From Agarophyton chilense (taxonomy: Eukaryota > Rhodophyta > Florideophyceae > Gracilariales > Gracilariaceae), in NCBI GenBank assembly GCA_030374765.1, contig JARGXX010000068.1, positions 1,116,001 through 1,180,000 on the forward strand: a stretch of 64,000 nucleotides of DNA, read 5' to 3'. Both the position numbers and the translations under genes were made by a program. A model generated the notes under the pieces. That model was given only the letters and a program-made list of their open reading frames with translations. It did not search any database and was not told the origin of the DNA. Shown in pieces: positions 2,687-28,620 of the stretch; position 1 is the first letter of the stretch, and each line of letters opens with the position of its first letter.

Positions 2687-3608
2687 TGTGGAGCAAAAAC
2701 CGGCGACGAGAAGTGCTCTCAAGGTGTTCGAAGCCTTGCTCCCTGGGGGAGGCAGACTCAGAGACAGAGCCCTCCGTTCCACCCGTAGTGTGGGGTGTAA
2801 CTCCCACGGGGGATTCCGGCAGTACCGACGGAGGTGAGGGGTAGAAACCGTTGGATCGGGAATGGGTATGGGTATCCCAAAGAATGGGGGAAAATCCGGC
2901 GAAGAGGAAAAACGGGGCGAGGGTCGGGCACTAACAGGCACCGGACCCGAGAACCAGAAAATGGGCGAAACAACAAAAGAAACCCAATACAGGAGCGAAA
3001 ACCTGTCCTCGAAAGGAAACACAAAAAGCACGAAACAAATAAGCAGAACCCCCACGGGGTATCGTGCACGCAGGTCGTCTGAGCGGTCCCAAGGAAGTGG
3101 TTGCACGGAACCCAAACGTGGGCACTCTCCAAGTGGAGTCGTGTCCCTACGCAGGCGTTGCTAACCAGAGCCCGTTCCGGGTTGTAAGGCCGAAACGATG
3201 GCGACGAAGAACCTCTAAAGGTATCGAAGACCAACCTTGGTTCCCATTTACTCTGAGCTCGGACTGTCAGATCTCGTCTCCCCAAGTAGGGCCCACTAAC
3301 TAAACTCTACTGATTACCGTGGTGCACACCTGCTCAGGGCCATACACGTGGAGATCCCACTGTCAGGGCCCAAAAGTCCAACGTTCTAACAAATATCCGA
3401 AAATCGGTGCCGAAATTAAGCTACGTGTATCACGGGGCCAATCCTACCATGCGCCATCCGAATCTTCCCTTCATAGGCGAACTCTAACCAGAAAACCGTG
3501 CCACCTCAGCACACCTTAGAGGGGATCATAGTCATAACCCTCGGAGGGTTCAACCCTCATTCTATGAGTTGCATCTTCAAGTATCCCCTAACTGGGCGTT
3601 GCTCTACA
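2687..3608 (-). repeat. E1 3' LTR
   Basis: 922-bp LTR, about 98.6% identical by eye to the copy at 11743-12664. Open frames inside it (for example around 2758-3285) recur in the other LTR only because the LTRs are copies; I do not treat them as genes. Confidence 0.95.
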
Positions 3609-3622
3609 TCTCCCCCTCCTTA
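3609..3622 (-). other. E1 polypurine tract
   Basis: On the element's sense strand a short G/A run (aaggaggggga) directly abuts the 3' LTR, the usual site of plus-strand priming in LTR elements. Confidence 0.7.
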
Positions 3623-3689
3623 AGACAAGGAAGAACATTCCGAGCCGCGGGTGTCTCGCTTTCGAGTCACTATATATACTTCTCTCCCA

Positions 3690-5546
3690 ATGGGGTCCTT
3701 CACCACTTCTGAGAATCGCCACAAAACCGGCACATCGGTACAACTTTCTTCTACTCCTCCGACTTTCGGCGATAAGCAACTTCTCGCAACAGCAGTCTCA
3801 ACCAGCCCTCTCAAGGGAATGAACCCATACGTCATCAACTTACTCTCGGGGCCGTCGGCCTCCGCGCCGGCGGACAACGAAGCTCCCCAGCAGGGTGGAT
3901 ATCTCTCCGGTCTTGAGGCGGCTCCGTCAGGTACCGAACCTTCCGCCTCGGCGAGCAACCGATATCCTCAGGAGGATTTGGACATTAACGCGGTGGTGTG
4001 GAACTCCGCTCATGCGATGCCCTTGGTGGCAAACTCCAGAGGTTGGATCTCAAACGAATCCTTTCGAAGGTGGAGTCCCCTTACCGATCCGGTGATATAT
4101 TCCCGTGCTCCGTGGTTCCATCCGACAGCGGTTCGCGACGATGAGCTCATCGACTCCTACGTGGAGCACGGCTTATTGCCGGGTGGCCTACCTGTCGAGG
4201 TTGTACGTTCTCCCGATTGGAGGGCGCGGGTAGCCATAGAGCCTCAGTATCTATACCGCGGTCGCGGGGAGTCCCTGGACAAGGCACGCGCAGCGATGGC
4301 GGCTCTGGCCTACCAGCGATTGGAGAGGTCACGCTTTGACCATCTGGTTCCCCCGGAGTACGGCTTCGATGTCGCCTATTACCGCACGTACGGTGAGGTC
4401 TCCTACGGGGATAACCTGGCAGCCTTTCCCGAAGCCGAGTTCCGCGGACCGGGTTTTCCTCTCCGAGAAGATATGCTCCAATGGAGTCGTCCCATCCTTC
4501 GGGCTGAATTCAGGTACCTCCAACGGCAGTTTACCCAGTATGGGTTCGATCGACGCGTGCGCTTCGAGCGCCGCTCGCGCTCCCGTTTCGGGTTCCTTGT
4601 CCCGTATCCTCACGTGGAACTGGAGCGTATCCGTAACACGGCGAAGGTTGGGCGATTCGTGCCCCTTCCAGCTTGGTGGAGTAAGGTCGAGGTCCCCCGA
4701 GGGTGCTTTGCTGAACTGCCCCCGTGCATCTACTATATCGGGTCTTGTTTGATGCACGACCCGAACTCGGGATACTGGGCCCTCGTTGCAGCCGAGTGGG
4801 CAGCCCGCGTAGCAACGCACCTCCTCTGGGATGCTCATGGCCATTTCCGTATCTGGTATATTCCTCCGATGCTACGGACCATCATGCGTCAGATCGACCT
4901 TGTCCCAGCGTTGGGTTCGGTCAGCAACGTGCAGGACCTGTATCCAATCTTGGCCGTGATCGACAACACCCAATGGGATCGAGTTCCAGTGGAAAATCAG
5001 CCCGCAGGGGAAGGATCCGCGCGAGACAAGTCTCCTGGCCGGTACGATCCGGGCTCCGGTAACTGGGTCTATTACAATCCCTTCGAAGGGGTTCGCATCA
5101 GCGCGGCGCAAGCACGGGCGCTGATGGACTCGCCTCGACCGATGCCGGTGGGACACCCAACGGGGTTCATTTATACCGACGATTACGAGTACGAGCCTCC
5201 AGTAGACCTGGACGATCCAGCGTTGGATAACGACACGCCAGCTCCTAGTGGAGTACTCCCTGTGGAACCATCTGCACCCTTCCAACCAGTGGGAACGACC
5301 TCAGCTGCGGCGGCGAATGCATCCGGTGGCGATTCATCTGCTCCCCCCGGGTGGGGTGTGGACACCCTTGCGCAGGCGCCGGTTGCCACTCCGCAAGCGG
5401 ATAGTGTGCGACAAGGCCTCGTGAACGCGGGCATTCCGATTCCCCCGGGTATGACGGATGTGAGCCAGATGTTGGCTTTCGCCTCGGCGTACCATCAGGG
5501 TCAGAATCCCAACGGTGGGGCGGGTCCCTCCTCGGGCTTTCCGTAG
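3690..5546 (+). CDS. E1 antisense ORF, conserved protein of unknown function
   Basis: A 618-codon frame on the strand opposite gag-pol, starting just inside the 3' LTR and running convergently towards the end of pol. The open frame begins at a GTG (3651); I chose the first ATG, at 3690. A TATATATA run lies just upstream (about 3671). Legible blocks are PRGCFAELPPCIYYIGS, DPNSGYWALV and HLLWDAHGHFRIWYIPP. Matching blocks recur in E2/E3 (PRGCPVELPPAISYIGS, DPFSGYWTVF, FLLWDAYDTFRVWYMSP) and more distantly in E4. The C-terminal third is low complexity, rich in Pro, Ala, Gly and Ser. I see no signal peptide, clear membrane segment or known domain. Antisense extra ORFs are known in some plant gypsy elements (Grande), but I do not recognise this family. 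Conservation across lineages suggests function (inference). Confidence 0.85.
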   Translation: MGSFTTSENRHKTGTSVQLSSTPPTFGDKQLLATAVSTSPLKGMNPYVINLLSGPSASAPADNEAPQQGGYLSGLEAAPSGTEPSASASNRYPQEDLDINAVVWNSAHAMPLVANSRGWISNESFRRWSPLTDPVIYSRAPWFHPTAVRDDELIDSYVEHGLLPGGLPVEVVRSPDWRARVAIEPQYLYRGRGESLDKARAAMAALAYQRLERSRFDHLVPPEYGFDVAYYRTYGEVSYGDNLAAFPEAEFRGPGFPLREDMLQWSRPILRAEFRYLQRQFTQYGFDRRVRFERRSRSRFGFLVPYPHVELERIRNTAKVGRFVPLPAWWSKVEVPRGCFAELPPCIYYIGSCLMHDPNSGYWALVAAEWAARVATHLLWDAHGHFRIWYIPPMLRTIMRQIDLVPALGSVSNVQDLYPILAVIDNTQWDRVPVENQPAGEGSARDKSPGRYDPGSGNWVYYNPFEGVRISAAQARALMDSPRPMPVGHPTGFIYTDDYEYEPPVDLDDPALDNDTPAPSGVLPVEPSAPFQPVGTTSAAAANASGGDSSAPPGWGVDTLAQAPVATPQADSVRQGLVNAGIPIPPGMTDVSQMLAFASAYHQGQNPNGGAGPSSGFP

Positions 5547-6789
5547 TTCCGCCTTCGGGCAATTGTAGAGTCCATAGCTTGGCGACAATAGTAAACTTCT
5601 GATATTTGCATAACTTTTTTTCTTCTTCCTCCCTAGGATCTTAACTTCTACTTCATCTTCTTCATTCCTTCTTAGGATCTTCTTCATCTTCGTCTTCATC
5701 TTCTTCCCTTCCTAGGGTCCAATCTTCTTCTTAATCTTCTTCTCCACTTCGTGGGTCTTCTTTTCCTTTTTTTATCATAAACTGTCCCGATAACTGGTGC
5801 TGTGTTCCCCGGTTAACGGCGCTAGGCCGAGGGCCAGTAAACATTCCCTCTCAATACATGTTCTTCGGGATACTCTCCTCAATTCCTCTTCAGAGGTCCA
5901 ACATCTTCCTCACTTCGAGGTCCCATCCACACCAATTCCCGTGGTGGCTTACCCGACTTGGGCACGATCCAGATTTGGAGGCAAGGTTACCCGAGCGCAT
6001 CGGTGATAGGATAAAACCTTAGACCTCGGAAGGTGCTCAATGGGTTCCACTGTATCCTCATCAGGCGAGAATCCGTACCATCGGACTTGGTAGCGAACTT
6101 CTCCCTTGGGGGGTGTAGATGTGACGCACGATGCAATCGATAACGAATTCCTGCGGGTACACTTTTCCCTGTTCGGGCTTCTCTTCCATCTTGGAACGCT
6201 CTAGTTCTCTTGAGAGTGTCAACGTAGGGTCTAGACACACCCCGGTGGGTTCTTTTCCGTGTTGCGAGCGGGTCTCAGCACTTCGTCCAAACGGCGCCGA
6301 GTGGCCTGTGGGCTACGTTGTAGCTTCCGTCTACGGAGTCAAAACGGCCCACTTTTGAGTTTTTCTTAAAGCTGAGGTCTTCCCGATAACAACGGTGTTC
6401 TTAGATTCCGTGACGGTTGAGAAACCGCGACGCGGTAGCGTCTCCAATCTCAGGGAAGTGAGGCTTCAACGTCAACCCGAGCTACGGGGACGAAGGTTGC
6501 TCTTGTGCAACGCGCCGTGCGACGGAGGCGGTTTGCGCGACGGTTGGTCGTCAGAGCCTTTTGATTGGCTCGGTGAGGCGATTTGCGCGACGGTTGGTCG
6601 TCAGAGCCTTTTGATTGGCTCGGTGCCATTCGACGTGTGCCAGATAAATGCGCGGGTGCCGGTTGCCGCTCCGCAAGCGGATGTGAGGTGGCGCTTTCGA
6701 CACGCGCTAGCACTCTCCTGAGCTGTCCCGGACGGGTCTCACTCATTTCTTTCCCATTCCTGAGGGTTCCAGTGTCTCCATAAGAGTTC
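5547..6789. other. E1 stretch between antisense ORF and pol, with CT-rich tract
   Basis: No gene recognised in these 1.2 kb. A pyrimidine-rich run of cttctt/cttcat units fills about 5610-5765, so the element's sense strand is GA-rich there. E2 and E3 carry a similar GA-rich tract at the equivalent place. A short block near 6657-6683 (ggttgccgctccgcaagcgg) resembles a block near 5385-5401 within the antisense ORF. Confidence 0.6.
6529..6630. repeat. 51-bp tandem repeat, two copies
   Basis: The block containing gcgcgacggttggtcgtc and ttttgattggctcggtg is present twice in tandem with a 51-base period, nearly unchanged. It lies in the non-coding stretch of E1. Confidence 0.85.
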
Positions 6790-8799
6790 CTATTCCCATT
6801 CCATAACGGAGAGCCATATTTGGTCAACCTCGTCGTCGAGATCTTCCCCGTGCGGGTCCGCTGACACAGCTCGTTCCCGAGAAAGCGGGGTTTGAGTGTG
6901 CGACACCTCAGTATCTCGTCCGCGGCGGCGGGTGATCGTCGGCTCTGTAGGCGTTTCCGCTGTGGTTCCCAAGCGGGACAGTGCATCAGCCTGAGTGTTC
7001 AGCTTCCCTTTCTTGTACAGGATCTCAAAGTCGAATTCCGACAGTCGGAGACGCCAGCGCATAAGGCGGCCCGAGGGTTCGGAGATCTCCAGGAGCCAAC
7101 GCAAGCATGCGTGGTCCGTATGGACTTTGAAACGAGTACCCATCAGATAGGGGCGAAGTGTAGCTAAGGCCCACTCACCGGCTAAACATTCCTTCTTGGA
7201 GACCGAGTAGTTCCTTTCATGGACATTCAGGGAACGTGACCAGTACCCAATAGGGTGACGTTCACCATCCTCAGAGGATTGGAACAGTGCACACCCTACT
7301 TGGTTTGCACTAGCATCGGTGTCCACTTCGTGAGGGAGCCCAGGATTGGGTAGAGCCAAGATTGGCGGTGATGTTACGGCATTCACCAGTGCCGTGAAGG
7401 CAGACGCTTCCGCGTCGCCAAAAGGTTCCAGTTCAACTGGTTGTCCCTTCGTCAGGAGCCTGTTGAGGGGGGTGGCAATATCCGCAAAGTTCGGGACGAA
7501 TCGGCGATACACGTTACACAGACCTAAGAAGGATCGCAACTCCGTTTGAGTTTTCGGGTTTTTTGCTTCCTTCAAGGATTTCACTCGTACTTCATCGATT
7601 GAAAGCTGTCCGGGACGGATGATATGACCCAGATACTTAACCGAATCGGTGAAAAACTCGCACTTCTTGAGTTTCAAGGTGATTCCCGCGTCGCGGAGTA
7701 TCTTCATTACGTCCCTGATGTGTTCGAGGTGGTCATCCAGGTTGTTGGAGAAAACAATAATGTTGTCTAAATACACTAGACACGTCCTCCACTTGAAGGG
7801 AGCCAACAGAATGTCTATCGCCCGTTGAAAAGTTGCGGGGGCATTTGTCAACCCCAAAGGCATCCTCCGGAATCGGAAAAGTCCTTGATGACACACGAAA
7901 GCCGTTTTGTCTCGATCTTCCTCTCTAATAGGGACTTGCCAATAGCCCGAATTGGCGTCGAGGGTAGAGAAAACAGTAGCGCTCCCAAGGGAGTCGATGT
8001 ATTCGTCCATCCGAGGGATTGGGTACACATCCTTAATTGGTACCTCGTTCAGGCGTCTGTAATCGATGCAGAAACGCCACGATCCATCCGGTTTCGGAAC
8101 TAACACCACTGGTGAGGCCCAAGCGGACTGGGCGGGTTCAATTACGCCCGCTTTAAGCATCTTCTCCACCTGAGATTTCTCCTCTTCCCGAGCTTTCGGT
8201 CCAGCCCTGTAAGGGTGTTGGTCAATAGGCCGAGTGTTCGGTAACAAGTCGATGCGGTGTTCTGTAATCCCAATAGTTCCAAGGGAACCATCCCACATGG
8301 GGGTAAATTCACGAAGCATGTGCCTCAGCTTCTCCCGATGAGATGCGGGTACATGGTTGAGATCCCATTTCTCCAATTCCTGAACAGGATCCGTCTGGTC
8401 TGCTCCTGTGATAGGGGCCGTAACCTTCTGAGGTTTAAAGTGTTCAGTGTGTGGAGCTGCAGTCGTATGCTCACCGTCTTCCGCGATTTCGGCAGTGTCC
8501 TCTCCCTCCTTAGGGTCCGCCACACCAAGGACCTCTGCGATAGAGATCTTTGTAGGTACGACCGCATGCGGGTGTGGAAGAACAGAACCCAGGATCTGGT
8601 GTTTGACCAAATGCTGCGTTGTCTTTCCAAAGTTGGCTACCAAAACCTTGAAAGGTTTATCCGGTTCCACGGAGACAACTCCATTCGCAAGGGCGAGTTG
8701 ACGCCGCGTATACAGAGACGGGTTTGGTTGTACCACATGCACACCAATTTTCTTGGTAACAACTGTGACCCAAACCTGGGTTTCTGGCGGGCTAGCCAC
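6790..8799 (-). CDS. E1 reverse transcriptase-RNase H
   Basis: Ty3/gypsy polymerase frame of about 669 codons. In order it has a pre-RT linker, the RT palm (FCIDYRRLNEVPIKDVYPIP, LDANSGYWQVPIREED, MPLGLTNAPATFQRAIDIL), the connection (LGHIIRPGQ) and RNase H (VDTDASANQVGCALF, SVSKKECLAGEWALATLRPY, TDHACLRWLL), ending with the typical NTQADALSRL. It would copy the element RNA into DNA in cytoplasmic particles. The first codon at 8799 is GTG and the frame opens upstream of it, so it is probably expressed as part of a Gag-Pol product rather than from its own start. Confidence 0.9.
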   Translation of the reverse strand: MASPPETQVWVTVVTKKIGVHVVQPNPSLYTRRQLALANGVVSVEPDKPFKVLVANFGKTTQHLVKHQILGSVLPHPHAVVPTKISIAEVLGVADPKEGEDTAEIAEDGEHTTAAPHTEHFKPQKVTAPITGADQTDPVQELEKWDLNHVPASHREKLRHMLREFTPMWDGSLGTIGITEHRIDLLPNTRPIDQHPYRAGPKAREEEKSQVEKMLKAGVIEPAQSAWASPVVLVPKPDGSWRFCIDYRRLNEVPIKDVYPIPRMDEYIDSLGSATVFSTLDANSGYWQVPIREEDRDKTAFVCHQGLFRFRRMPLGLTNAPATFQRAIDILLAPFKWRTCLVYLDNIIVFSNNLDDHLEHIRDVMKILRDAGITLKLKKCEFFTDSVKYLGHIIRPGQLSIDEVRVKSLKEAKNPKTQTELRSFLGLCNVYRRFVPNFADIATPLNRLLTKGQPVELEPFGDAEASAFTALVNAVTSPPILALPNPGLPHEVDTDASANQVGCALFQSSEDGERHPIGYWSRSLNVHERNYSVSKKECLAGEWALATLRPYLMGTRFKVHTDHACLRWLLEISEPSGRLMRWRLRLSEFDFEILYKKGKLNTQADALSRLGTTAETPTEPTITRRRGRDTEVSHTQTPLSRERAVSADPHGEDLDDEVDQIWLSVMEWE

Positions 8800-8813
8800 T
8801 GACTTCGCAACCT

Positions 8814-9482
8814 TTACCGTGTAGACACCGGGTCCTTCTTCACAGATTCCTGCGCGACAGGTAAAGGAACGCGTGTTCGCGCTGCTCCATGTAAGGGTTT
8901 ACGAACGATTGGGATCGTAGACCCGTCTTCGAGTTCCACAGTTCTATTCCGAGGACGGATGGCTTCCACGAAGCGGTCGCAAAAGTCACAACCCAGTATG
9001 ACTGGTGCTGCAAGTGACTTGCATACAATAAACTCTCGCTGAACGAGATAGGAGCCTAACCTCACCATGAGAGAAATTGTACCCAGTGTCCGTAGCGGGT
9101 TGTTGTTCGCATCGGCGATATCCAAACGTGGACCGGGACGAACTTGAACCCGGAGCAGCGGGGGTAACAATTCAACATGAATTAAGTTAGGAGCGGCTCC
9201 TGTATCCAGGACAGATATTTGACGAACCATAAACTGGTTGGACAGGCCGAAGTCGGCGAATACTTTATAATTCCGCTTGGCCATTACCATAACTCGATCC
9301 GGAATACGGAGATTACGGGACCGTATCCACGGGCGACGGAGGACACTAAAGTATCCCGAGTTAACGTCGGTGTCAGCCGTTCTCCTTGAAAGGATAGTCA
9401 CAGCCGGGGAGCGAAGCTGGAGCGCCTCGGGCGTCTTCAACTCCGGCTTAGAAGACGCCCCTCCCGCAGGGGAGAATCCCAA
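8814..9482 (-). CDS. E1 aspartic protease region
   Basis: A 222-codon frame directly after gag. The retropepsin active-site motif is seen as VLDTGAAPNLIHVELL, with the downstream VILGCDFCDRFVEAIRPRNR block shared with E2/E3. It cuts the Gag and Gag-Pol polyproteins. It has no ATG at its open start and is presumably made by read-through or frameshift from gag, as is usual in this family. Confidence 0.85.
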   Translation of the reverse strand: MGFSPAGGASSKPELKTPEALQLRSPAVTILSRRTADTDVNSGYFSVLRRPWIRSRNLRIPDRVMVMAKRNYKVFADFGLSNQFMVRQISVLDTGAAPNLIHVELLPPLLRVQVRPGPRLDIADANNNPLRTLGTISLMVRLGSYLVQREFIVCKSLAAPVILGCDFCDRFVEAIRPRNRTVELEDGSTIPIVRKPLHGAARTRVPLPVAQESVKKDPVSTR

Positions 9483-9484
9483 GT

Positions 9485-11515
9485 TTAGTTTTTCGAAGCG
9501 GACCCCACCGAATTCGGTGTAGCTGCCGCGAAGGGGACCGGTTGTTCCCCGTTCGCGGGTACAAGTTCTGTATCCCTGTCAGCAAGGTGAACTCGGAGTA
9601 TCCTTTGTTCCTCATAGGACCTACTCGGGACTCGAGCTTTCTCCTCAGGGGTCAGAGCATCGTACTGAGCGATAATTCGTGAACCCTCCCGCAGGGGAAA
9701 TGTGCAGTCTGGTGCTTTGTGACCACGGAGGTAACACAAATAGCAAATCAGCTCTGCCGGGTTCGGTTGTGGACGTGAATCCACGCGACGTGGTGCTGTA
9801 TCCCTCCATCCGGGGCGAGAGAATCGAGCAGCGATATTCGCAAAAGGTAGCGATGCGGCTGGCACCCTCCGTCCGTGGGTATAGAGCGCAGGGTCTTCAT
9901 CCGTAGTCGTAGCGGATGTCGACGGCAACTCAGACGTACCCATAGATTCGGGGTTACTTCCCATGAAGTGAATGTTATCATTGACCCCCACAGGGGCCGG
10001 GCCTCCTGCGAGTGACAAAGACGAGTTACCTCCATCGGCGAGGAGTGCACTTGTCGGCCGACTCTTTCGGTTCTGCCGGGCACGGAGAGTATCCCCCTCA
10101 GCCTGGGCGTACTGAACAAATTCCAAGTAGGTCAGCTTGTGCTTCTCTTCCCGATGTCGGGCAACCAATGCCCTTATCGAGGGGTCCAAACCATCCACAA
10201 ACATGGAGCATCTCTCGTAGGCGGGGAATACATTCCCGCATCGGTGAAACGCTTTATTCAAGCGAGTTGAATACACCGTTTCGGTTTCCATCGGCTTCTG
10301 CCGCGTATCCCTTAATGCAAGGATTGCTTCCTGAATCGCATTTCCAGTAGCATATGACCTCAAGAGGTACTGCACCGCTTCGGGCCAGCACGTGACTCCC
10401 CCTTCCGAGGCTCGGGATGATCCACGGACGGAGTTGAACTGGTCTTCAGCCATCCCCTTTAAGAAATAGGGTAATGCAAGATACGATTGCGCTTCACTCA
10501 TACCGAGGATGTCAGCCTCCTGGACGAAACTCGCAACGAAATCGAGCACCAGAATTGGGTCTGTTCCTGTGAACTCCCTCTTCTGTAGGGTGATGCTCAG
10601 CCTTTTGATGTAGTCCTTGACCTTACCCGTTCCGCGGGATGTTCGATCTCCCGAAGGGTTATCCAACAGGTAATAGCGGTACGATAGCAGCTTCCGATAG
10701 AGAGGATTCGTCGGCTTCAGCTCCCTTAATCCAAGGTGTTTCCTACCCTTATTCCGGGTACGGATTGCCCCTTGAGAGGTGTAAGTAGCCTTGGACCGAG
10801 TCGCCCGGGATGACCGGCGTCCATCTTCACTATCCGAAGATTCGGAGGACGAACTCGATGACGAGCGATTGGGATCGGAATCAGATAAATCCTCTTGGAG
10901 GTGAACCCTCTTCTTGGACTTGCGGCGGTCCCGTTTAGCGGAGCGGTGTTCTTCGTCTTCCGAAACGTCGGGTTTATCCTTCGAGGCTTCTGTGTCTCCG
11001 TCCATACGGATAATGGCCTCGAGGGTGTCCAGCCGAGCTCGGAAGCGTTCCGCTTGCACGCGGTGTTTCTCCACGAGGCTCCGGTACTCCTGGATAAAGA
11101 CCCCAGGGGTACCAAAGCTTTCCAAAAGGGAGTTCACATCCCTCCTCAGGGTACGAAGGTCATCGGCGACTCCCCGCACCTGGGCGTCTTCCACCTTGCG
11201 GCGGAGGGTAGTAACCTCCTGAAGGACCTCGAAGTGAGCCGCGTTGGCGATATCGATTCGAGTCTCCAGGCGCTGTAATTCAGGGTCGGCCCGACTTTGG
11301 GGTGCTGCTGAGGGGGTCTCCACCACTGGAGCTGGGCCCACAGCCACGACCTCTCGAGGACCTGAAACCAATGAGGGTGCTCTCCGAGTGTCCGGATCGA
11401 TACCGGAATCGTTCCAATCTTCGAGAATTGAGCTCATCGACCTAGGCGGGGCCGGGGGCACTGAATCCGCTTGACGGTTCGATCCAGTCCTGGAACCACG
11501 GGTATTCGGCGACAT
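9485..11515 (-). CDS. E1 gag (capsid-nucleocapsid)
   Basis: 676 codons from a true ATG (MSPNTRGSRTGSN). The N-terminal third is a likely coiled coil (LQEVTTLRRKVEDAQVRGVA and around), followed by a Ser/Asp/Glu-rich linker, the capsid region (SYLALPYFLKGMAEDQFNSV, FVDGLDPSIRALVARHREE) and a C-terminal CCHC zinc knuckle (CYLCYLRGHKAPDC). The E2/E3 gag has the same order. It forms the particle and binds element RNA. It lies right after the primer-binding site. Confidence 0.92.
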   Translation of the reverse strand: MSPNTRGSRTGSNRQADSVPPAPPRSMSSILEDWNDSGIDPDTRRAPSLVSGPREVVAVGPAPVVETPSAAPQSRADPELQRLETRIDIANAAHFEVLQEVTTLRRKVEDAQVRGVADDLRTLRRDVNSLLESFGTPGVFIQEYRSLVEKHRVQAERFRARLDTLEAIIRMDGDTEASKDKPDVSEDEEHRSAKRDRRKSKKRVHLQEDLSDSDPNRSSSSSSSESSDSEDGRRSSRATRSKATYTSQGAIRTRNKGRKHLGLRELKPTNPLYRKLLSYRYYLLDNPSGDRTSRGTGKVKDYIKRLSITLQKREFTGTDPILVLDFVASFVQEADILGMSEAQSYLALPYFLKGMAEDQFNSVRGSSRASEGGVTCWPEAVQYLLRSYATGNAIQEAILALRDTRQKPMETETVYSTRLNKAFHRCGNVFPAYERCSMFVDGLDPSIRALVARHREEKHKLTYLEFVQYAQAEGDTLRARQNRKSRPTSALLADGGNSSLSLAGGPAPVGVNDNIHFMGSNPESMGTSELPSTSATTTDEDPALYTHGRRVPAASLPFANIAARFSRPGWRDTAPRRVDSRPQPNPAELICYLCYLRGHKAPDCTFPLREGSRIIAQYDALTPEEKARVPSRSYEEQRILRVHLADRDTELVPANGEQPVPFAAATPNSVGSASKN

Positions 11516-11722
11516 GCTGCAGACACGACACCGACGATTCGGGGTAACGATGAAATTCGATCACGAGATTCCCGGAGAACGGATGACCTAACACAAAACA
11601 AAAATAAAAACCAATTCCACCCTTTCCAAAGGAAACCACTACAACAAATCTTCACGACGGTGCTTCCTCTTCCAAGAGATATTCCAACACATGGATGACC
11701 AACCCAAAAGTCCGAGAACGGA

Positions 11723-11742: not shown

Positions 11743-12664
11743 TGTGGAGCAAAACCCGGCGACGGGAAGTGCTCTAAAGGTGTTCGAAGCCTTGCTCCCT
11801 GTGGGAGGCAGACTCAGAGACAGAGCCCTCCGTTCCACCCGTAGTGTGGGGTGTAACTCTCACGGGGGATTCCGGCAGTACCGACGGAGGTGAGGGGTAG
11901 AAACCGTTGGATCGGGAATGGGTATGGGTATCCCAAAGAATGGGGGAAAATCCGGCGAAGAGGAAAAACGGGGCGAGGGTTGGGCACTAACAGGCACCGG
12001 ACCCCAGAACCAGAAAATGGGCGAAACAACAAAAGAAACCCAATACAGGGGCGAAAACCTGTCCTCGAAAGGAAACACAAAAAGCACGCAACAAGTAAGC
12101 AGAACCCCCACGGGGTATCGTGCACGCAGGTCGTCTGAGCGGTCCCAAGGAAGTGGTTGCACGGAACCCAAACGTGGGCACTCTCCAAGTGGAGTCGTAT
12201 CCCTACGCAGGCGTTGCTAACCAGAGCCCGTTCCGGGTTGTAAGGCCGAAACGATGGCGACGAAGAACCTCTAAAGGTATCGAAGACCAACCTTGGTTCC
12301 CATTTACTCTGAGCTCGGACTGTCAGATCTCGTCTCCCCAAGTAGGGCCCACTAACTAAACTCTACTGATTACCGTGGTGCACACCTGCTCAGGGCCATA
12401 CACGTGGAGATCCCACTGTCAGGGCCCAAAAGTCCAACGTTCTAACAAATATCCGAAAATCGGTGCCGAAATTAAGCCACGTGTATCACGGGGCCAATCC
12501 TACCATGCGCCATCTGAATCTTCCCTTCATAGGCGAACTCTAACCAGAAAACCGTGCCACCTCAGCACACCTTAGAGGGGATCATAGTCATAACCCTCGG
12601 AGGGTTCAACCCTCATTCTATGAGTTGCATCTTCAAGTATCCCCTAACTGGGCGTTGCTCTACA
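11743..12664 (-). repeat. E1 5' LTR
   Basis: 922-bp LTR, TGTGG to CTACA on the plus strand, followed at once by the target duplication catcg. Confidence 0.95.
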
Positions 12665-13438
12665 CATCGACAACCTTGATTGCGACACAAGTTAGATTTC
12701 CATCAGTAGGTCGGTAGAAAAGCGGGGGAACCCACACGAGCTGCTTGAAGTCAATTGAGCGCAACAATTTGTCGCTAAGCTGTTTCCATTTGGCACTGGC
12801 ATTGACAAGACCATCTGTAGCGGTAAGAACCAACCAAGGAAAACAGTGAAGCGTAGCACACTCACGTGAGGGGATCATGTAGACATCACGGGTAGCGTCA
12901 CCAGTTTGGAGGAAAGTGCTCTTGAAGTCGATCTTGGCGAGCACCCAGTGATGAATTGTGGCAATCGAGAACAGTATACGGATACCAACAGGTGGGCATG
13001 TGGCAGAATCAGTCTTCAGACCATGTTTATGCTTTTCTTCGTCAACGTGAGGAGCAATTCGGGCCTTCAGGACCATGGAAGAGTCATCGCTCTTCCTGAT
13101 CTTGTAAAACACGTGACTACGTATATTTTTTGCCTCTACGGGAACTTAGGGCAGTGGGACTTCTCTGACGGTCTTTTCGAAATCAAGATCTTCTTTGCAG
13201 TATGCATTCTCAGTAACAAAGTGGGGCATACCATCTGACTGGTGTAGTATGAATTCTTTGGATCCTAGAACATCGTAGAAATCTGCTATAGTCTTCTGGT
13301 CAGTTCGAACAAGATCGTGGCCAGGTGACAGCTGTACTTCCGAAGCGGAGACATGGGAAGCAGTGCGGGGAGCTACAGACGTCTCGCGTTCAGGGCTTAG
13401 AAAGGACGCAAAGAAAATAACGGTCGGTGTAGAATCAT
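12665..13438 (-). mobile_element. Ty1/copia fossil, 5' piece (linker and RT start)
   Basis: Minus-strand continuation of the fossil at 1641-2686. The copia RT start is readable near 12,660-13,112 (LKTDSATCPPVGIRILFSIA, then AKIDFKSTFLQTGDATRDVY), typical of the GalEa-like clade. The stretch to 13,438 is the less conserved region before RT. It ends at the E2 insertion; about 14 bases of possible copia continuation (24,627-24,640) lie beyond E2, after which the copy is lost at a rearrangement junction. Broken, several breaks. Confidence 0.75.
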
Positions 13439-19060: not shown

Positions 19061-19099
19061 TTGAGACCCATTCACCATCTTTTGAAGAAGAGGAACAAG

Positions 19100-20918
19100 A
19101 GACCTTGATAATTATTCGGATGCAGACCCGTTCCTTGCATTAGCAGACACTGACCCTTCAGTTCAACTCGAGCGAATCTCGTGCACTGAGCTCCTCAATG
19201 AGCAACACGCCGATACGTTTTGTGCGTCAATACGCTCTCGTCTTAACGGGGGGGAGGAGCTCCCCTTTTCACTCGATTCACGAGGAATACTGTTAAGACA
19301 TGTCGAAAAGCATGATCAAACCGTGATTCCACACGTCTTGAAGAGTCGAGTACTCCACCTGGCACACTACAGCAGGCTGTCTGGTCATCCAGGAGGAACG
19401 AAGTTGTTCATGACTCTAAGAAGAGATTTTTATTGGCCTACTTCGGCAATGGACTGCCATGCTACAGTGAGGTTGTGTACAACATGTGCGAAGAATCGCG
19501 TGAAGCTTTACAGGAAGCGGAAACCGATGACGTTATTCCAGGCGAAAGCGCCTTTACAATACGTCAGTATCGACATCCTAGGCGAATTTATTCGCTCAAG
19601 GCGAGGTTATCGCTACCCATTGGTAATCACCGACCGCTTCTCGAAGCTAGTGCGGACTTTGCCGCTGAAGCGGATAACCGCAACCGTAATCGCACAAACG
19701 TTTATCAAACACTGGGTATTTATATACGGACCACCAGAAGTTCTGTTATCAGATAATGGGAAGCAGTTCGTTGCGAAGTTCTTTCAGAATGTTTGCCGCA
19801 TTATGGGCATCCGAAACGTGTTTTCCACGACCTATCATCCGCAATGCAACGGTCAGGTGGTGCGTTTCAACCGCACGCTGATAGCATCATTACGAAACTA
19901 CATCGCGGACCACCCGAAAGAATGGGACATGTTTACAGATACTCTGTGCTGCGCGTACAATACGCAAGTGCATACCTCTATAAAGACGGCACCGTCCGAC
20001 CTCGTGCTCTCACGTAACCCTCCGGCTTTACCGGTTGCGCTCGACGAAGAGACAGAATTGGACGCGCCGACCCCGGCTAAGTACCATCTGAAATGGAGGA
20101 ATGACCTGAAGGCAAGAGCGGAAGAAGCCGCTAAAGAGTTATCGAAAACGCAAGCTCGGTATAAGCGAAACTATGACGCCAGAAGGCGAAGAGGAAATCC
20201 GGCAATCCGAGTAGAAGGTCACGTCTTCGTGCGAATCGAAAGACCTGACAAACAGGAAGAATCGCGTCATAAGTTGTTACCGGTAGCGGCTGGACCCATC
20301 AAAGTGGTGGACCTTGATGAAGACACAGTGGTCATCAAGACAGGTGAGGACGTTGAACGTTTATCGCGCGATCACGTTGAAGTCGCGCCTGACCCGCAAG
20401 TGGAAGTCCAGGTATCTGGTAGAACTAAGGAGGTAAGTACGACGGAACGTCAAGGCAAAAGCCCAAGTGACTCTGGGGAGAGTGAACCGCCACCAATGGC
20501 TCGAGCGGAGGAGAAAGCTCCTGATCTCCCACCGCTGGCGGTTGCGTACGCCAATCACGGACAGCTTCCGAAATATCGGGATATGCCCCGTGGCACGCAC
20601 ACACCAGTAAGTACAGAAATGGAACCTGAGAGCAGGAAAGATGTTTTGGAATTTGGCCCCAAGGACTTGGAAATGAGTGCACGCGAACACGCGCCGTTGC
20701 TGCTTCAGGCTGAACCGTCAGGTGAAGCGCCACTCGCTGTTCCGCCGATATCGTCTCCCATCCCTCGTGATCAGGAAGAAGAAGAAGTATCGCCCCCTGT
20801 CGTGGTGCGAGCACCATCGTCCTCCCAACAGCGGTCAGAATCGGATAAACCGGAGGAAATTCATCCACGAATGGTATTGAGAAGTAGCAAGAAGTACGCT
20901 TCTATGGGACCTGGATAA
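19100..20918 (+). pseudogene. E2 integrase region
   Basis: Integrase with the N-terminal zinc-binding HHCC module (HYSRLSGHPGGTKLFMTL then CTTCAKNR) and the catalytic core (YVSIDILGEF, LLSDNGKQFVAKFF, TTYHPQCNGQVVRFNRTLI), then a long Pro/Glu-rich tail ending near 20,918. It inserts element DNA into the chromosome. This part lies in the near-identical inverted arm shared with E3. Member of a broken element. Confidence 0.88.
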
Positions 20919-20954
20919 CAGGATAGCTCTTTATCTGATAAAGGTTCTCAAGGA

Positions 20955-21371
20955 ATGAGTACACTGCCCCTGCGGGCAGAACGACAGTTAGTCGACGAGC
21001 GAACGCTTAGCGACGCGGAGACTGCTAACACAGAGACGCTTGGGTCAGCCCTAAGGCATTTCAAACCTGTTAACAGGAGTCTCGCGCCAACAGCGAAAGC
21101 ATTGGGAAACGCCCAGAAATATGTTATGGATCGCATATGTGAGCATGGCGAGCATGAAAACACCAGAGAATTACTGTATCGAGTCCGTTGGTACGGTTTT
21201 CCTCCGGAAGCGGATACGTGGGAACCTATAGCTCATAACCCCCGTTTTCAGCTCGTGCGATATCATCGACGCATGCGATTACCACTCCCCAGGGAGATCG
21301 ACGCCTCGATAGTCGGGCTCATGGGCACATCCCATTTCAAAGTATGGGCTACAAAGGTAGTAAAAACTTGA
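20955..21371 (+). pseudogene. E2 chromodomain-bearing frame
   Basis: 138-codon open frame after the integrase. It carries a chromodomain-like fold signature: YVMDRICEHGEHENTRELLY, then VRWYGFPPEADTWEP, with the aromatic residues used by chromodomains to hold methyl-lysine. Chromoviruses use this module at the integrase C-terminus to target chromatin. E4 carries the same module. Belongs to a broken element. Confidence 0.85.
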
Positions 21372-21540
21372 AAGGCGAGAAGAAAACAAGAAATCATGAA
21401 GAGGAGACGTGAAGACACGCAAGCAAAGGACATTTACTGATTATCACCTATGACAAACTCGAGAAGCGAGAAGAAGAAGTTAAGAACTCGAGAAGCGAGA
21501 AGAGATGAAGACTAGAAGATAAGAAGGGAACGTGAAGACA
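21372..21540 (+). repeat. GA-rich tract in E2
   Basis: Purine-rich run built of gagaagcgagaagaag-like units between the chromodomain frame and the end of the antisense ORF. The equivalent tract in E1 is CT-rich on the plus strand because E1 is reversed. Placed where two convergent transcripts would meet. Confidence 0.7.
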
Positions 21541-21693
21541 TGAAGTCACCGGAGTTTTATTGGTATCAAGATATCACCGCAAGGTGTTGACTAGGAGTCT
21601 TTTCTGGGATCATCAAAGAGACGTGCGATCACGCAGGTTCGCAAGAGGCTGTGCGCGACCATCCTCAACTTGGTCCACGGGAAAGCCCGCATC

Positions 21694-23741
21694 TCAGAGG
21701 AACTGCCTCAGCAGATCCAAGCCTGGATCTTCGACCGGCACTGCACTCGGTTGCTGGGTAAACCCATGAAAGAACTCTTGAGCAACTCCCGCCGCCGCGG
21801 ATTGATCGACGGAAGTCGCTACGCCTGCCAGCTCTGGCTCGTCCTCGTAACCGAGTTCAGACTCAGCTCCCGGCGCTTCCTCATACGGTTCCTCTCCGTT
21901 CTCGGATGGAATAGCATCGTACACGTATCCAGTAAGCTGGTTCGGTGGCATGTCACGCGGGTTCTCCCGAAGAAAGCGAGCCTGCTCGGAGGTGATCAAC
22001 TGGGGCGTCCAGGGGTCGTACCAAACGAAATCTCGAGCACTTGCTGTTCGTCCAGGAGAATGGTCGTGGTATCTTGCACGAGTTCCGCCAGCGGATTGAT
22101 CAGCGGGCACTCCAGACCAGTCGACACTGTCGATTACATCCACAAGATGGAGGAAGTCGGCATGGTTCGCACGGGATCCCAGGACAAGGGAAAGATCGAG
22201 TTCTCTCGCATACTTTCGCGCTGTGGGCGACATGTACCAAACTCTAAAGGTATCATAAGCATCCCACAGGAGAAAGACGGCCATCTTGGCGATAAATTCA
22301 GTATAAAACACCGTCCAATATCCCGAGAACGGGTCGTTAACCAACGCAGACCCAATGTAGGAGATCGCCGGTGGGAGCTCCACAGGGCAACCACGAGGAA
22401 TCTCGATCGCCGCCCAATGCTCCGGAATACCGATGTAGCGCCCGAAGCGCGAGTTCCGCCGGATGCAGTAAATCTCGATCATTTGATACGGCACCAAATA
22501 GCCCAAACGTGATCGAGTATGACGTTCCCAACGTAAATAGTCCCAATAGGGAATGTCACGCTTTCGAAGGAAGCAGAACTCCGCACGGAGAAGAGGTTGC
22601 TGAAAGCAGAGAGCTGCATCACGCACACCGCGCACATCGCGCCAACCGCTAACATCGACTTCAACGAGTGTCTCGATATACGAGTAACATTGACCGTTGG
22701 TACGGGCTTTCCACGTATCTAGTTCCCAGCCCTACGGGAGGAGAACTGTACTGATGAATCGAGGAAGACGCTGGTAAATCAGCTTAGTGAACCGCGTACG
22801 GGCTTCGGACAAGGTTTCCGTTAAATATCGCGCAATGGCGTTGTCTGGCAAAGCAATATGGCTCACCCAGTCGTCGCTATAAATCGCCTGTTCCGGAATA
22901 CCGTCGGGGAAGTACCCGCCGTGTACATACTGTTGTATCAACTCGTCATCGCGGATAGCAACTGGATCAAACCAGGACGCTTGCGCGAAAAGTTCAACGT
23001 TGTCGAGAGGATCTCGTCCATAGAAATCCGCAGCGTCCGGGTAGCTCCGCCGAGCACGACGAGAAGGAGCTCGAATCACTCCCGCAGAGGCAACGTAAGC
23101 CGCGTTCGGCATCGGAGCCACAGTTGGCTGAGGTAACGGTACCGACCGGAATCCGGTGTACGGTGTGGGGAACGAACGGTATGGACCGAGTTCAGCAGTA
23201 TGCTGGGACGCATAACCAGCAGTGTTGGCTTAGTGAACCGCGTACGGGCTTCGGACAAGGTTTCCGTTAAATATCGCGCAATGGCGTTGTCTGGCAAAGC
23301 AATATGGCTCACTCAGTCGTCGCTATAAATCGCCTGTTCCGGAATACCGTCGGGGAAGTACCCGCCGTGTACATACTGTTGTATCAACTCGTCATCGCGG
23401 ATAGCAACTGGATCAAACCAGGACGCTTGCGCGAAAAGTTCAACGTTGTCGAGAGGATCTCGTCCATAGAAATCCGCAGCGTCCGGGTAGCTCCGCCGAG
23501 CACGACGAGAAGGAGCTCGAATCACTCCCGCAGAGGCAACGTAAGCCGCGTTCGGCATCGGAGCCACAGTTGGCTGAGGTAACGGTACCGACCGGAATCC
23601 GGTGTACGGTGTGGGGAACGAACGGTATGGACCGAGTTCAGCAGTATGCTGGGACGCATAACCAGCAGTGTTGGACGGAGCCCCGGAAGGCACATCCTCA
23701 GAGGAGGGCTGCAACGGGTTGGACCTGGCGTTCGGATCCAT
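21694..23741 (-). pseudogene. E2 antisense ORF
   Basis: Counterpart of the E1 antisense frame, on the strand opposite gag-pol, beginning at ATG 23741 (MDPNARSNPLQPSSEDVPSG). Blocks shared with E1 include RDDELIQQYVHGGYFPDGIP against RDDELIDSYVEHGLLPGGLP, PRGCPVELPPAISYIGS and FLLWDAYDTFRVWYMSP. The C-terminus is acidic and low complexity. It carries an internal tandem duplication, listed separately. No known domain recognised. Member of a broken element. Confidence 0.8.
22782..23673. repeat. 446-bp tandem duplication in E2
   Basis: 22782-23227 and 23228-23673 are two copies in tandem, nearly identical (I see one difference, near 22,866 against 23,312). It is much younger than the element itself. 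Confidence 0.93.
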
Positions 23742-23898
23742 CGCGAGAGATCGAGCTGAAGAGCGGTGAGGAACAAAATGCTGTTGAGTACTGTAAGAGT
23801 TCTTCGGGCGGCGAGGAATTCGTGATGAAGATGACTACCTGGAACACCGGTCCGACTGCGTATAAACGCTTCTTGCGTCCCCCATGGTTCGCGCTTAA

Positions 23899-24638: not shown

Positions 24639-25969
24639 TCTATGGACGAGATCCTCTCGACAACGTTGAACTTTTCGCGCAAGCGTCCTGGTTTGATCCA
24701 GTTGCTATCCGCGATGACGAGTTGATACAACAGTATGTACACGGCGGGTACTTCCCCGACGGTATTCCGGAACAGGCGATTTATAGCGACGACTGGGTGA
24801 GCCATATTGCTTTGCCAGACAACGCCATTGCGCGATATTTAACGGAAACCTTGTCCGAAGCCCGTACGCGGTTCACTAAGCTGATTTACCAGCGTCTTCC
24901 TCGATTCATCAGTACAGTTCTCCTCCCGTAGGGCTGGGAACTAGATACGTGGAAAGCCCGTACCAACGGTCAATGTTACTCGTATATCGAGACACTCGTT
25001 GAAGTCGATGTTAGCGGTTGGCGCGATGTGCGCGGTGTGCGTGATGCAGCTCTCTGCTTTCAGCAACCTCTTCTCCGTGCGGAGTTCTGCTTCCTTCGAA
25101 AGCGTGACATTCCCTATTGGGACTATTTACGTTGGGAACGTCATACTCGATCACGTTTGGGCTATTTGGTGCCGTATCAAATGATCGAGATTTACTGCAT
25201 CCGGCGGAACTCGCGCTTCGGGCGCTACATCGGTATTCCGGAGCATTGGGCGGCGATCGAGATTCCTCGTGGTTGCCCTGTGGAGCTCCCACCGGCGATC
25301 TCCTACATTGGGTCTGCGTTGGTTAACGACCCGTTCTCGGGATATTGGACGGTGTTTTATACTGAATTTATCGCCAAGATGGCCGTCTTTCTCCTGTGGG
25401 ATGCTTATGATACCTTTAGAGTTTGGTACATGTCGCCCACAGCGCGAAAGTATGCGAGAGAACTCGATCTTTCCCTTGTCCTGGGATCCCGTGCGAACCA
25501 TGCCGACTTCCTCCATCTTGTGGATGTAATCGACAGTGTCGACTGGTCTGGAGTGCCCGCTGATCAATCCGCTGGCGGAACTCGTGCAAGATACCACGAC
25601 CATTCTCCTGGACGAACAGCAAGTGCTCGAGATTTCGTTTGGTACGACCCCTGGACGCCCCAGTTGATCACCTCCGAGCAGGCTCGCTTTCTTCGGGAGA
25701 ACCCGCGTGACATGCCACCAAACCAGCTTACTGGATACGTGTACGATGCTATTCCATCCGAGAACGGAGAGGAACCGTATGAGGAAGCGCCGGGAGCTGA
25801 GTCTGAACTCGGTTACGAGGACGAGCCAGAGCTGGCAGGCGTAGCGACTTCCGTCGATCAATCCGCGGCGGCGGGAGTTGCTCAAGAGTTCTTTCATGGG
25901 TTTACCCAGCAACCGAGTGCAGTGCCGGTCGAAGATCCAGGCTTGGATCTGCTGAGGCAGTTCCTCTGA
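24639..25969 (+). pseudogene. E3 antisense ORF, partial
   Basis: Same protein as the E2 antisense frame and identical over its last 313 codons (25028-25969), again opposite to gag-pol. It begins at the arm junction, so its N-terminal part is not present. Confidence 0.8.
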
Positions 25970-28542
25970 GATGCGGGCTTTCCCGTGGACCAAGTTGAGG
26001 ATGGTCGCGCACAGCCTCTTGCGAACCTGCGTGATCGCACGTCTCTTTGATGATCCCAGAAAAGACTCCTAGTCAACACCTTGCGGTGATATCTTGATAC
26101 CAATAAAACTCCGGTGACTTCATGTCTTCACGTTCCCTTCTTATCTTCTAGTCTTCATCTCTTCTCGCTTCTCGAGTTCTTAACTTCTTCTTCTCGCTTC
26201 TCGAGTTTGTCATAGGTGATAATCAGTAAATGTCCTTTGCTTGCGTGTCTTCACGTCTCCTCTTCATGATTTCTTGTTTTCTTCTCGCCTTTCAAGTTTT
26301 TACTACCTTTGTAGCCCATACTTTGAAATGGGATGTGCCCATGAGCCCGACTATCGAGGCGTCGATCTCCCTGGGGAGTGGTAATCGCATGCGTCGATGA
26401 TATCGCACGAGCTGAAAACGGGGGTTATGAGCTATAGGTTCCCACGTATCCGCTTCCGGAGGAAAACCGTACCAACGGACTCGATACAGTAATTCTCTGG
26501 TGTTTTCATGCTCGCCATGCTCACATATGCGATCCATAACATATTTCTGGGCGTTTCCCAATGCTTTCGCTGTTGGCGCGAGACTCCTGTTAACAGGTTT
26601 GAAATGCCTTAGGGCTGACCCAAGCGTCTCTGTGTTAGCAGTCTCCGCGTCGCTAAGCGTTCGCTCGTCGACTAACTGTCGTTCTGCCCGCAGGGGCAGT
26701 GTACTCATTCCTTGAGAACCTTTCTCAGATAAAGAGCTATCCTGTTATCCAGGTCCCATAGAAGCGTACTTCTTGCTACTTCTCAATACCATTCGTGGAT
26801 GAATTTCCTCCGGTTTATCCGATTCTGACCGCTGTTGGGAGGACGATGGTGCTCGCACCACGACAGGGGGCGATACTTCTTCTTCTTCCTGATCACGAGG
26901 GATGGGAGACGATATCGGCGGAACAGCGAGTGGCGCTTCACCTGACGGTTCAGCCTGAAGCAACAACGGCGCGTGTTCGCGTGCACTCATTTCCAAGTCC
27001 TTGGGGCCAAATTCCAAAACATCTTTCCTGCTCTCAGGTTCCATTTCTGTACTTACTGGTGTGTGCGTGCCACGGGGCATATCCCGATATTTCGGAAGCT
27101 GTCCGTGATTGGCGTACGCAACCGCCAGCGGTGGGAGATCAGGAGCTTTCTCCTCCGCTCGAGCCATTGGTGGCGGTTCACTCTCCCCAGAGTCACTTGG
27201 GCTTTTGCCTTGACGTTCCGTCGTACTTACCTCCTTAGTTCTACCAGATACCTGGACTTCCACTTGCGGGTCAGGCGCGACTTCAACGTGATCGCGCGAT
27301 AAACGTTCAACGTCCTCACCTGTCTTGATGACCACTGTGTCTTCATCAAGGTCCACCACTTTGATGGGTCCAGCCGCTACCGGTAACAACTTATGACGCG
27401 ATTCTTCCTGTTTGTCAGGTCTTTCGATTCGCACGAAGACGTGACCTTCTACTCGGATTGCCGGATTTCCTCTTCGCCTTCTGGCGTCATAGTTTCGCTT
27501 ATACCGAGCTTGCGTTTTCGATAACTCTTTAGCGGCTTCTTCCGCTCTTGCCTTCAGGTCATTCCTCCATTTCAGATGGTACTTAGCCGGGGTCGGCGCG
27601 TCCAATTCTGTCTCTTCGTCGAGCGCAACCGGTAAAGCCGGAGGGTTACGTGAGAGCACGAGGTCGGACGGTGCCGTCTTTATAGAGGTATGCACTTGCG
27701 TATTGTACGCGCAGCACAGAGTATCTGTAAACATGTCCCATTCTTTCGGGTGGTCCGCGATGTAGTTTCGTAATGATGCTATCAGCGTGCGGTTGAAACG
27801 CACCACCTGACCGTTGCATTGCGGATGATAGGTCGTGGAAAACACGTTTCGGATGCCCATAATGCGGCAAACATTCTGAAAGAACTTCGCAACGAACTGC
27901 TTCCCATTATCTGATAACAGAACTTCTGGTGGTCCGTATATAAATACCCAGTGTTTGATAAACGTTTGTGCGATTACGGTTGCGGTTATCCGCTTCAGCG
28001 GCAAAGTCCGCACTAGCTTCGAGAAGCGGTCGGTGATTACCAATGGGTAGCGATAACCTCGCCTTGAGCGAATAAATTCGCCTAGGATGTCGATACTGAC
28101 GTATTGTAAAGGCGCTTTCGCCTGGAATAACGTCATCGGTTTCCGCTTCCTGTAAAGCTTCACGCGATTCTTCGCACATGTTGTACACAACCTCACTGTA
28201 TCATGGCAGTCCATTGCCGAAGTAGGCCAATAAAAATCTCTTCTTAGAGTCATGAACAACTTCGTTCCTCCTGGATGACCAGACAGCCTGCTGTAGTGTG
28301 CCAGGTGGAGTACTCGACTCTTCAAGACGTGTGGAATCACGGTTTGATCATGCTTTTCGACATGTCTTAATAGTATTCCTCGTGAATCGAGTGAAAAGGG
28401 GAGCTCCTCCCCCCCGTTAAGACGAGAGCGTATTGACGCACAAAACGTATCGGCGTGTTGCTCATTGAGGAGCTCAGTGCACGAGATTCGCTCGAGTTGA
28501 ACTGAAGGGTCAGTGTCTGCTAATGCAAGGAACGGGTCTGCA
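24639..28542. repeat. Right arm of near-identical inverted repeat
   Basis: Mirror of 19121-23024. The match stops abruptly at 24,639, where 9-14 bases of possible copia flank begin, with two bases shared at the junction. Confidence 0.9.
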
Positions 28543-28620
28543 TCCGAATAATCATCAAGGTTCTCTTGTTCCTCTTCTTCAAAAGATGGTGAATGGGTCT
28601 CCATGTAGAAGCAAGGTATC
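26292..28620 (-). pseudogene. E3 integrase and chromodomain
   Basis: Integrase (HPGGTKLFMTLRRDFYWPTS, LLSDNGKQFVAKFF) and a separate chromodomain frame (26292-26708), nearly letter-for-letter the same as in E2. Both lie mostly within the homogenised arm. Fossil element. Confidence 0.85.

Follow-up and report, generated by a model that had tools for sequence, protein, structure and literature searches.

Antisense frames in the Ty3/gypsy elements of the locus

We analyzed a 64,000-nt stretch of the Agarophyton chilense genome (contig JARGXX010000068.1, positions 1,116,001–1,180,000; assembly GCA_030374765.1), hereafter referred to as the window. Searches of the organism's own genome were run on the same assembly, which comprises 79.8 Mb in 135 contigs. 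The window carries five Ty3/gypsy elements, E1 to E5, which fall into three groups (E1, E2/E3 and E4/E5). E1 lies on the minus strand and is bounded by a 3′ LTR at 2687–3608 and a 5′ LTR at 11743–12664, which form a direct repeat with 98.6% identity over 922 nt. Its gag frame (9485–11560, −) was assigned from its position and from its identity to the gag of E3 (42%) and E4 (28%), and yielded no match in the Pfam scan. The frame encoding reverse transcriptase (RT) and RNase H is located at 6790–8898 (−; PF00078, 4e-37; PF17917, 8.4e-32), and a chromodomain remnant at 6014–6098 (−) was recognized only by eye in the translation. Between pol and the 3′ LTR, on the strand opposite to gag-pol, a plus-strand frame of 640 codons is open from stop to stop (3624–5546). 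It contains in-frame ATG codons at 3690 and 3819, and the ORF from the first ATG (3690–5546, +) encodes a 618-aa protein. A probable polypurine tract, read from the letters, adjoins the 3′ LTR (3609–3624, −), and a TATA-like motif, TATATATA (3671–3678, +), is a candidate antisense promoter for the E1 frame only. At the other end of the element, a frame that by eye resembles a Ty1/copia reverse transcriptase (12660–13145, −) adjoins the 5′ LTR.

The E1 copy in the window lacks an integrase core. Of the seven other E1 loci, six (L002, L003, L004, L005, L007 and L008) match the window between the LTR edge (2682–2687) and 6959 and no further, some of them piecewise, and the alignment of the seventh (L006) reaches 6092 (hits over 150 nt). 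Past the position equivalent to 6959, locus L073, which adjoins L007, carries a 423-codon integrase frame. The window's copy looks non-autonomous despite its open accessory frame.

E2 lies on the plus strand and contains an integrase frame (19086–20918, +; PF00665, 3.6e-13; PF17921, 3.2e-13) followed by a chromodomain frame (20919–21371, +; PF00385, 6.1e-7). Its antisense ORF appears in the list of open frames as three minus-strand pieces, C-terminal (21694–22731, 345 codons), middle (22732–23229) and N-terminal (23313–23834), and spans a 446-bp tandem duplication (22782–23228 and 23228–23674, 99.8% identity). The C-terminal piece of the E3 antisense ORF (24932–25969, +) belongs to an inverted near-copy of E2. 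The 3,923-nt arms of the two elements (19102–23024 and 24639–28561) were listed as 100% complementary, and the outer arms were 94–95% complementary; this difference suggests that the inner arms were recently converted or duplicated, or that the assembly is at fault. In E4, the antisense ORF occupies two consecutive plus-strand frames (34922–35641 and 35642–36655; together 34922–36655), and the end of pol (36924–37706, −) carries a chromodomain whose score lies just above the cut-off (PF00385, 1.1e-5; 25.7 bits versus 25.1). E5 contains antisense ORF pieces at 51801–52352 and 52386–53120 (−; 51801–53120 overall, from the list of open frames), and is 73% identical to locus L041 over 52389–53117. 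Two types that are broken in the window are intact elsewhere in the genome: uninterrupted 608-aa frames starting with ATG were found at two E2-type loci (L019 and L029), and the E4-type frame at L041 spans 748 codons from stop to stop, or 691 from a GTG. The antisense frame thus measures 600–750 codons across the three Ty3/gypsy groups.

The first-pass annotation had placed a long frame opposite gag-pol, between the end of pol and the 3′ LTR, in E1, E2/E3 and E4/E5. This layout was recovered with both LTRs in E1 and E2 and from the order of frames in E3 to E5, and recurs in the pairs of pol and antisense frames described below. Three groups of carriers stand. Because E3 is an inverted near-copy of E2, the two are not independent and were counted as a single observation; E4 and E5 belong to one group but are distinct copies. 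The chromovirus order of RT, RNase H and integrase with a C-terminal chromodomain was seen in E2 as the integrase, the chromodomain and an RNase H piece resembling that of E1. The corresponding feature of E4 is its family-tested chromodomain, and those of E1 are RT/RNase H, the integrase of the other copy (L073) and the chromodomain recognized by eye. Elsewhere in the window, a minus-strand frame at 57133–57852 ends in the aspartic-protease-like motif FLDTGA (by eye) and is perhaps another retroelement, and a short self-similar repeat at 62112–62314 has low-complexity frames on both strands.

Copies of the frame and constraint on its codons

Genome searches scored at least 70 E1-type, at least 117 E2-type and at least 119 E4-type places, the last with the second E4 frame (35642–36655) as the query; two genome listings pooled gave at least 103 distinct E1-type places. 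Among the best-scoring copies, 39 of 70 E1-type antisense places were stop-free, as were 44 of 64 RT/RNase H places (Fisher p 0.15), indicating that open copies are about as common for the antisense frame as for pol. An antisense frame was among the matches listed, with centres within 8 kb, for at least 28 of the 64 E1-type pol places. It lay on the 3′ side of pol in all 28 pairs and on the opposite strand in 27. The lone same-strand pair (G000:C7:693172–699982) may represent two adjoining elements. When the region 3609–6790 was simulated 3,000 times with the same dinucleotide make-up, the longest open run in the three plus frames was 405 codons, versus 640 in the real E1 frame.

Selection on the frame was analyzed, with the window copies included, over 630 codons in 16 E1 copies, over the C-terminal 344 codons in 30 E2 copies and over the C-terminal 337 codons in 20 E4 copies. 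The best-scoring copies were used throughout for E2 and E4 and for the first eight of E1; the other eight E1 copies were picked from stop-free matches. Median pairwise dN/dS in the antisense frame was 0.52 (E1), 0.57 (E2) and 0.49 (E4), the lowest of the six frames in each group. These values, which are not near 1, are signs of the purifying selection that had been proposed from the persistence of the frame. Choosing copies by their protein similarity pushes dN/dS downward; the private E4 variants described below, which lie near 1 under the same picking, suggest that the bias is small there. Four of the other frames gave 0.85–1.21, and one reverse frame gave 0.55 (E1), 0.64 (E2) and 0.57 (E4). 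When mutations were re-dealt among sites of the same trinucleotide context, using 60 random pairs per group, the corrected values were 0.70, 0.77 and 0.68 for the antisense frame and 0.71, 0.82 and 0.78 for the low reverse frame (E1, E2 and E4, respectively), so that in E1 the two were level. Third codon positions of this reverse frame fall on the same bases as those of the antisense frame, and it contains a median of 21, 16 and 13 stops in the three groups; we therefore consider its low dN/dS to be an echo.

Variants shared by at least two copies were then compared with private ones. In E4, shared variants gave 0.60, a value as low as which was obtained in 0 of 500 shuffles, and private variants gave 1.02, which reads as selection while the element was spreading and neutrality once it was inserted. 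E2 showed the same direction, though not firmly (shared, 0.68, 39 of 500 shuffles as low; private, 0.87). E1 does not bear out this contrast. Across its 16 copies, shared variants gave 0.64 (25 of 500) and private ones 0.78 (14 of 500), but in the eight copies that had not been picked for openness the direction was reversed (shared, 1.13 from 22 variants; private, 0.67). Depletion of stop-creating private variants was not clear (279 of 500 shuffles as low in E2 and 113 of 500 in E4). Pairwise stop-creating ratios relative to synonymous changes were 0.14 (E1), 0.35 (E2) and 0.50 (E4); the pairs are not independent, and the E1 ratio is biased because half of that set was picked to be stop-free.

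Along the E1 frame, raw pN/pS was 0.23–0.36 in four of 11 blocks (codons 120–180, 240–300, 300–360 and 540–630), 0.53–0.61 in three, 0.76–1.01 in three, and 3.42 over the 12 codons preceding the first ATG. Successive blocks from codon 120 to 480 gave 0.36, 0.53, 0.27, 0.23, 0.53 and 0.83. The strongest evidence for constraint is the homology over long divergence, described below, together with the shared variants of E4. The case rests mainly on these two observations, and the antisense frame is almost certainly a real, selected gene.

The antisense protein family

The E1 and E2 proteins share 36% identity over 469 aa (E=4e-85). The alignment contains the blocks PRGC..ELPP..YIGS, D..SGYW and LLWDA..FR.WY, which the first-pass annotation had picked out by reading the two proteins. 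Its further suggestion that E4/E5 encode remote homologues was borne out weakly. A BLASTP comparison of E2 with E4 gave E=4e-4 over 205 aa, and a profile–profile comparison matched E4 with E=7.8e-5 and a probability of 61.6% over 172 columns, with the blocks in the same order; BLASTP of E1 against E4 alone was not significant (E=0.23). From these alignments, E4 is probably a remote member of the family.

Homologues were present beyond the locus, not only at the genomic places counted above but also outside this genome. When 5.8 billion proteins were searched with the E1 query, four relatives were returned, P0001–P0004 (35–48% identity); the search scored the best 7,998 candidates only, and distant relatives may therefore have been missed. 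One of the four, P0002, is BWQ96_10156 of Gracilariopsis chorda, which matches 76% of the E1 protein at 42% identity (E=9e-108) and is annotated only as hypothetical. The E4 query returned three matches (P0005–P0007), all from A. chilense. P0005, whose record comes from another assembly, is encoded at C135:902946–904199 of the present one with 100% identity across its 418 residues. Between groups, identities were 53–63% for RT, 42–52% for integrase and 28–42% for gag, and a broken E5 RT fragment was 45% identical to that of E3. In the comparison of the E1 with the E2 group, the accessory protein was 36% identical, gag 42%, integrase 52% and RT 63%, indicating that the accessory protein evolves faster than pol and at a rate near that of gag.

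As the initial reading had anticipated, we recognized no known domain in the protein. No family exceeded the cut-off in Pfam scans (E≤1; E≤10 for seven alignment members), and PHROG and PDB-sequence searches gave no meaningful match. The AlphaFold2 model of E1, built from seven sequences, had a mean pLDDT of 54 and a pTM of 0.48. Residues 111–210, 321–440, 451–490 and 571–600 were modelled as mostly helical with pLDDT of 63–88 (63–85 at 111–210; 67–88 at 321–440 and 451–490). Values were 35–68 at 211–320 and below 50 for the N-terminal 110 residues and residues 491–570. The stretch conserved in the alignment, approximately residues 140–492 (4107–5165, +), is predicted to be mostly helical. A fold search of this model against PDB and BFVD found no match, at a model quality too low to establish a new fold.

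Proposed role and relation to known antisense genes

Position, orientation, large copy number, homology across groups and outside the genome, and in-frame protein constraint are established for the antisense gene. We tentatively propose, at close to an even chance, that it encodes a regulatory accessory protein, expressed from its own LTR-proximal promoter, in red-algal Ty3/gypsy elements with a chromodomain. An antisense gene is untranslatable from the genomic RNA and therefore needs a transcript of its own, which suits a product whose time or level of expression differs from that of Gag-Pol. Such an antisense transcript is likely to exist; it would be made separately from the genomic RNA, with its promoter at the 3′ LTR or a short way inward of it. 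Candidate starts lie 81 nt (ATG 3690) or 210 nt (ATG 3819) from the 3′ LTR in E1, and 26 or 170 nt from it in E2. The second E1 start, MNPYVINLLSGPS (MNP..), resembles the start of P0001, MNPNHNLSGNPSF, and the E2 start, MDPNAGSNP, and follows the TATATATA box by 148 nt. The TATA motif was present at 7 of 8 E1 loci. The assumed start was located at 28 of 30 E2 loci, one of which had the motif, and at 7 of 20 E4 loci, none of which had it. The layout leads us to expect a promoter near the LTR, but a candidate motif is available for E1 only.

The product would comprise a mostly helical conserved stretch of approximately 350 residues between disordered tails, and would act in trans, most likely in the nucleus, favouring expression or spread of the element. 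Candidate modes are control of transcription or RNA, or protection from silencing; an enzyme of reverse transcription is not among them. We favour a protein that acts in trans, probably in the nucleus, as a regulator or against silencing, because gene23 of Grande, described below, is the nearest precedent with data. Resting on this analogy, a nuclear or regulatory role is possible, somewhat short of an even chance, and we favour it over a role in the particle. A PKKRAR-like basic motif occurs near the E4 C-terminus in 9 of 20 copies; the search pattern did not find this NLS-like motif in the other 11 E4 copies, E1, two E2 proteins or P0001–P0007.

Among the alternatives, the one that survives best, though we regard it as unlikely, is a component of the particle or nucleoprotein, made from the antisense mRNA and acting alongside Gag to assemble the particle, to chaperone RNA or to bring the integration complex into the nucleus. 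Its divergence is of the same order as that of gag, and helical stretches with disordered tails in the model would suit such a protein. However, profile–profile comparison gave no sign of a gag duplicate (E=0.86), the Pfam scans produced no match over the cut-off, and the antisense placement would keep the gene off the genomic RNA, which would be unusual for a structural protein.

We consider it improbable that the frame is a captured host gene or nested element, carried as cargo that the retrotransposon does not need. Antisense cargo would at first look alike, and a single-copy host homologue could exist, as only the best candidates were scored. Yet three pol groups with RT identities of 53–63% carry the gene at the same position and with the same orientation, among the best-scoring copies its frame is intact at a frequency similar to that of RT/RNase H, and the only inverted repeat in 3500–5800 is one 12-nt palindrome. 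Nor do we give much more weight, and if anything slightly less, to the view that the antisense RNA itself matters, for instance as self-limiting dsRNA, with the frame being secondary. LTR elements can have antisense transcripts that act as RNA, a point raised for plant antisense ORFs in the part of PMC7264820 available to us, but the constraint tracks codon positions here, and protein similarity is kept at 35–48% identity to the outside homologues.

An envelope-like or cell-to-cell movement protein is very improbable. The position matches that of env in retroviruses, and 19-residue stretches of moderate hydrophobicity occur in E4-type proteins (L041, 1.82; P0005, 1.68; P0006, 1.78; P0007, 2.08) and in P0004 (2.15); a value of approximately 1.6 is often taken for a membrane helix. 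The gene nevertheless runs opposite to the sense orientation of env, and no membrane-like segment was found in E1, two E2 proteins or P0001–P0003 (maxima, 1.03–1.39). Finally, a chance open frame or a by-product of sense-strand constraint is contradicted and scarcely credible: one reverse frame is also low, its corrected E1 value being just 0.01 above that of the antisense frame, but it shares third codon positions with the latter and is full of stops, the 640 codons exceed the simulated maximum, and the outside homologues are read in the antisense frame.

If a red-algal chromovirus lineage evolved such a gene independently of the flowering-plant lineage, a possibility taken up below, antisense placement by the 3′ LTR would itself be the selected design, one that gives the element a second transcription unit apart from the genomic RNA, whose protein protects or switches the element, e.g., as an anti-silencing factor. 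According to the text available of PMC7264820, what antisense accessory genes do in LTR retrotransposons is not settled even for plant elements. Another, apparently distinct protein family at this position in a remote phylum would mean that what looked peculiar to plants may be a general strategy, and many natural copies are on hand for evolutionary tests. The question also bears on the growth of red-seaweed genomes: a published assembly of Gracilaria chilensis (another name of A. chilense), as summarized in the available part of PMC10388701, comprises 76 Mb in 138 contigs, with 66.2% repeats, and RNA-seq was produced for its annotation.

The first-pass annotation had considered the family undescribed. 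This appears to hold for the protein family but not for the arrangement, since an antisense ORF between pol and the 3′ LTR is a described class that includes Grande, RIRE2, Retand, PvRetro13 and Boty. Among the titles and abstract openings listed from the open-access literature on red-algal gypsy elements and chromoviruses, transposable elements of Gracilaria and Gracilariopsis, algal antisense ORFs and accessory genes of seaweed elements, none described the family; the words “gypsy” and “antisense” are absent from the main text of two Gracilaria papers, PMC10388701 among them. As described in the available text of PMC7264820, maize Grande gene23 is antisense, has its own promoter and encodes a nuclear protein. 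The algal gene resembles Grande gene23 and the RIRE2 aORF-3R in being an antisense ORF between pol and the 3′ LTR, present in many copies, with conservation near that of other element proteins (near gag, and faster-evolving than pol). It differs in its red-algal host and in the chromodomain of E2 and E4. The TRP28 ORF of Retand (Transposase_28, PF04195), which occurs in 97% of recently active Retand clusters according to the part of PMC11963269 available, has the same place and orientation. In contrast to Retand, which is described as a non-chromovirus plant lineage, the algal elements carry a chromodomain after the integrase (E2) or at the end of pol (E4), and the scanned antisense proteins gave no PF04195 match (E≤1; E≤10 for seven alignment members). 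That a red-algal chromovirus lineage evolved an antisense gene with an unrelated protein, independently of the flowering-plant Retand/Tat lineage, is a suggestion we regard as rather doubtful. Likeness also extends, from descriptions, to Boty of Botrytis and to HTLV, in which an antisense gene likewise lies by the 3′ LTR; in HTLV, whose APH-2 is also antisense, the antisense promoter sits in the 3′ LTR itself, as stated in the available text of PMC7264820.
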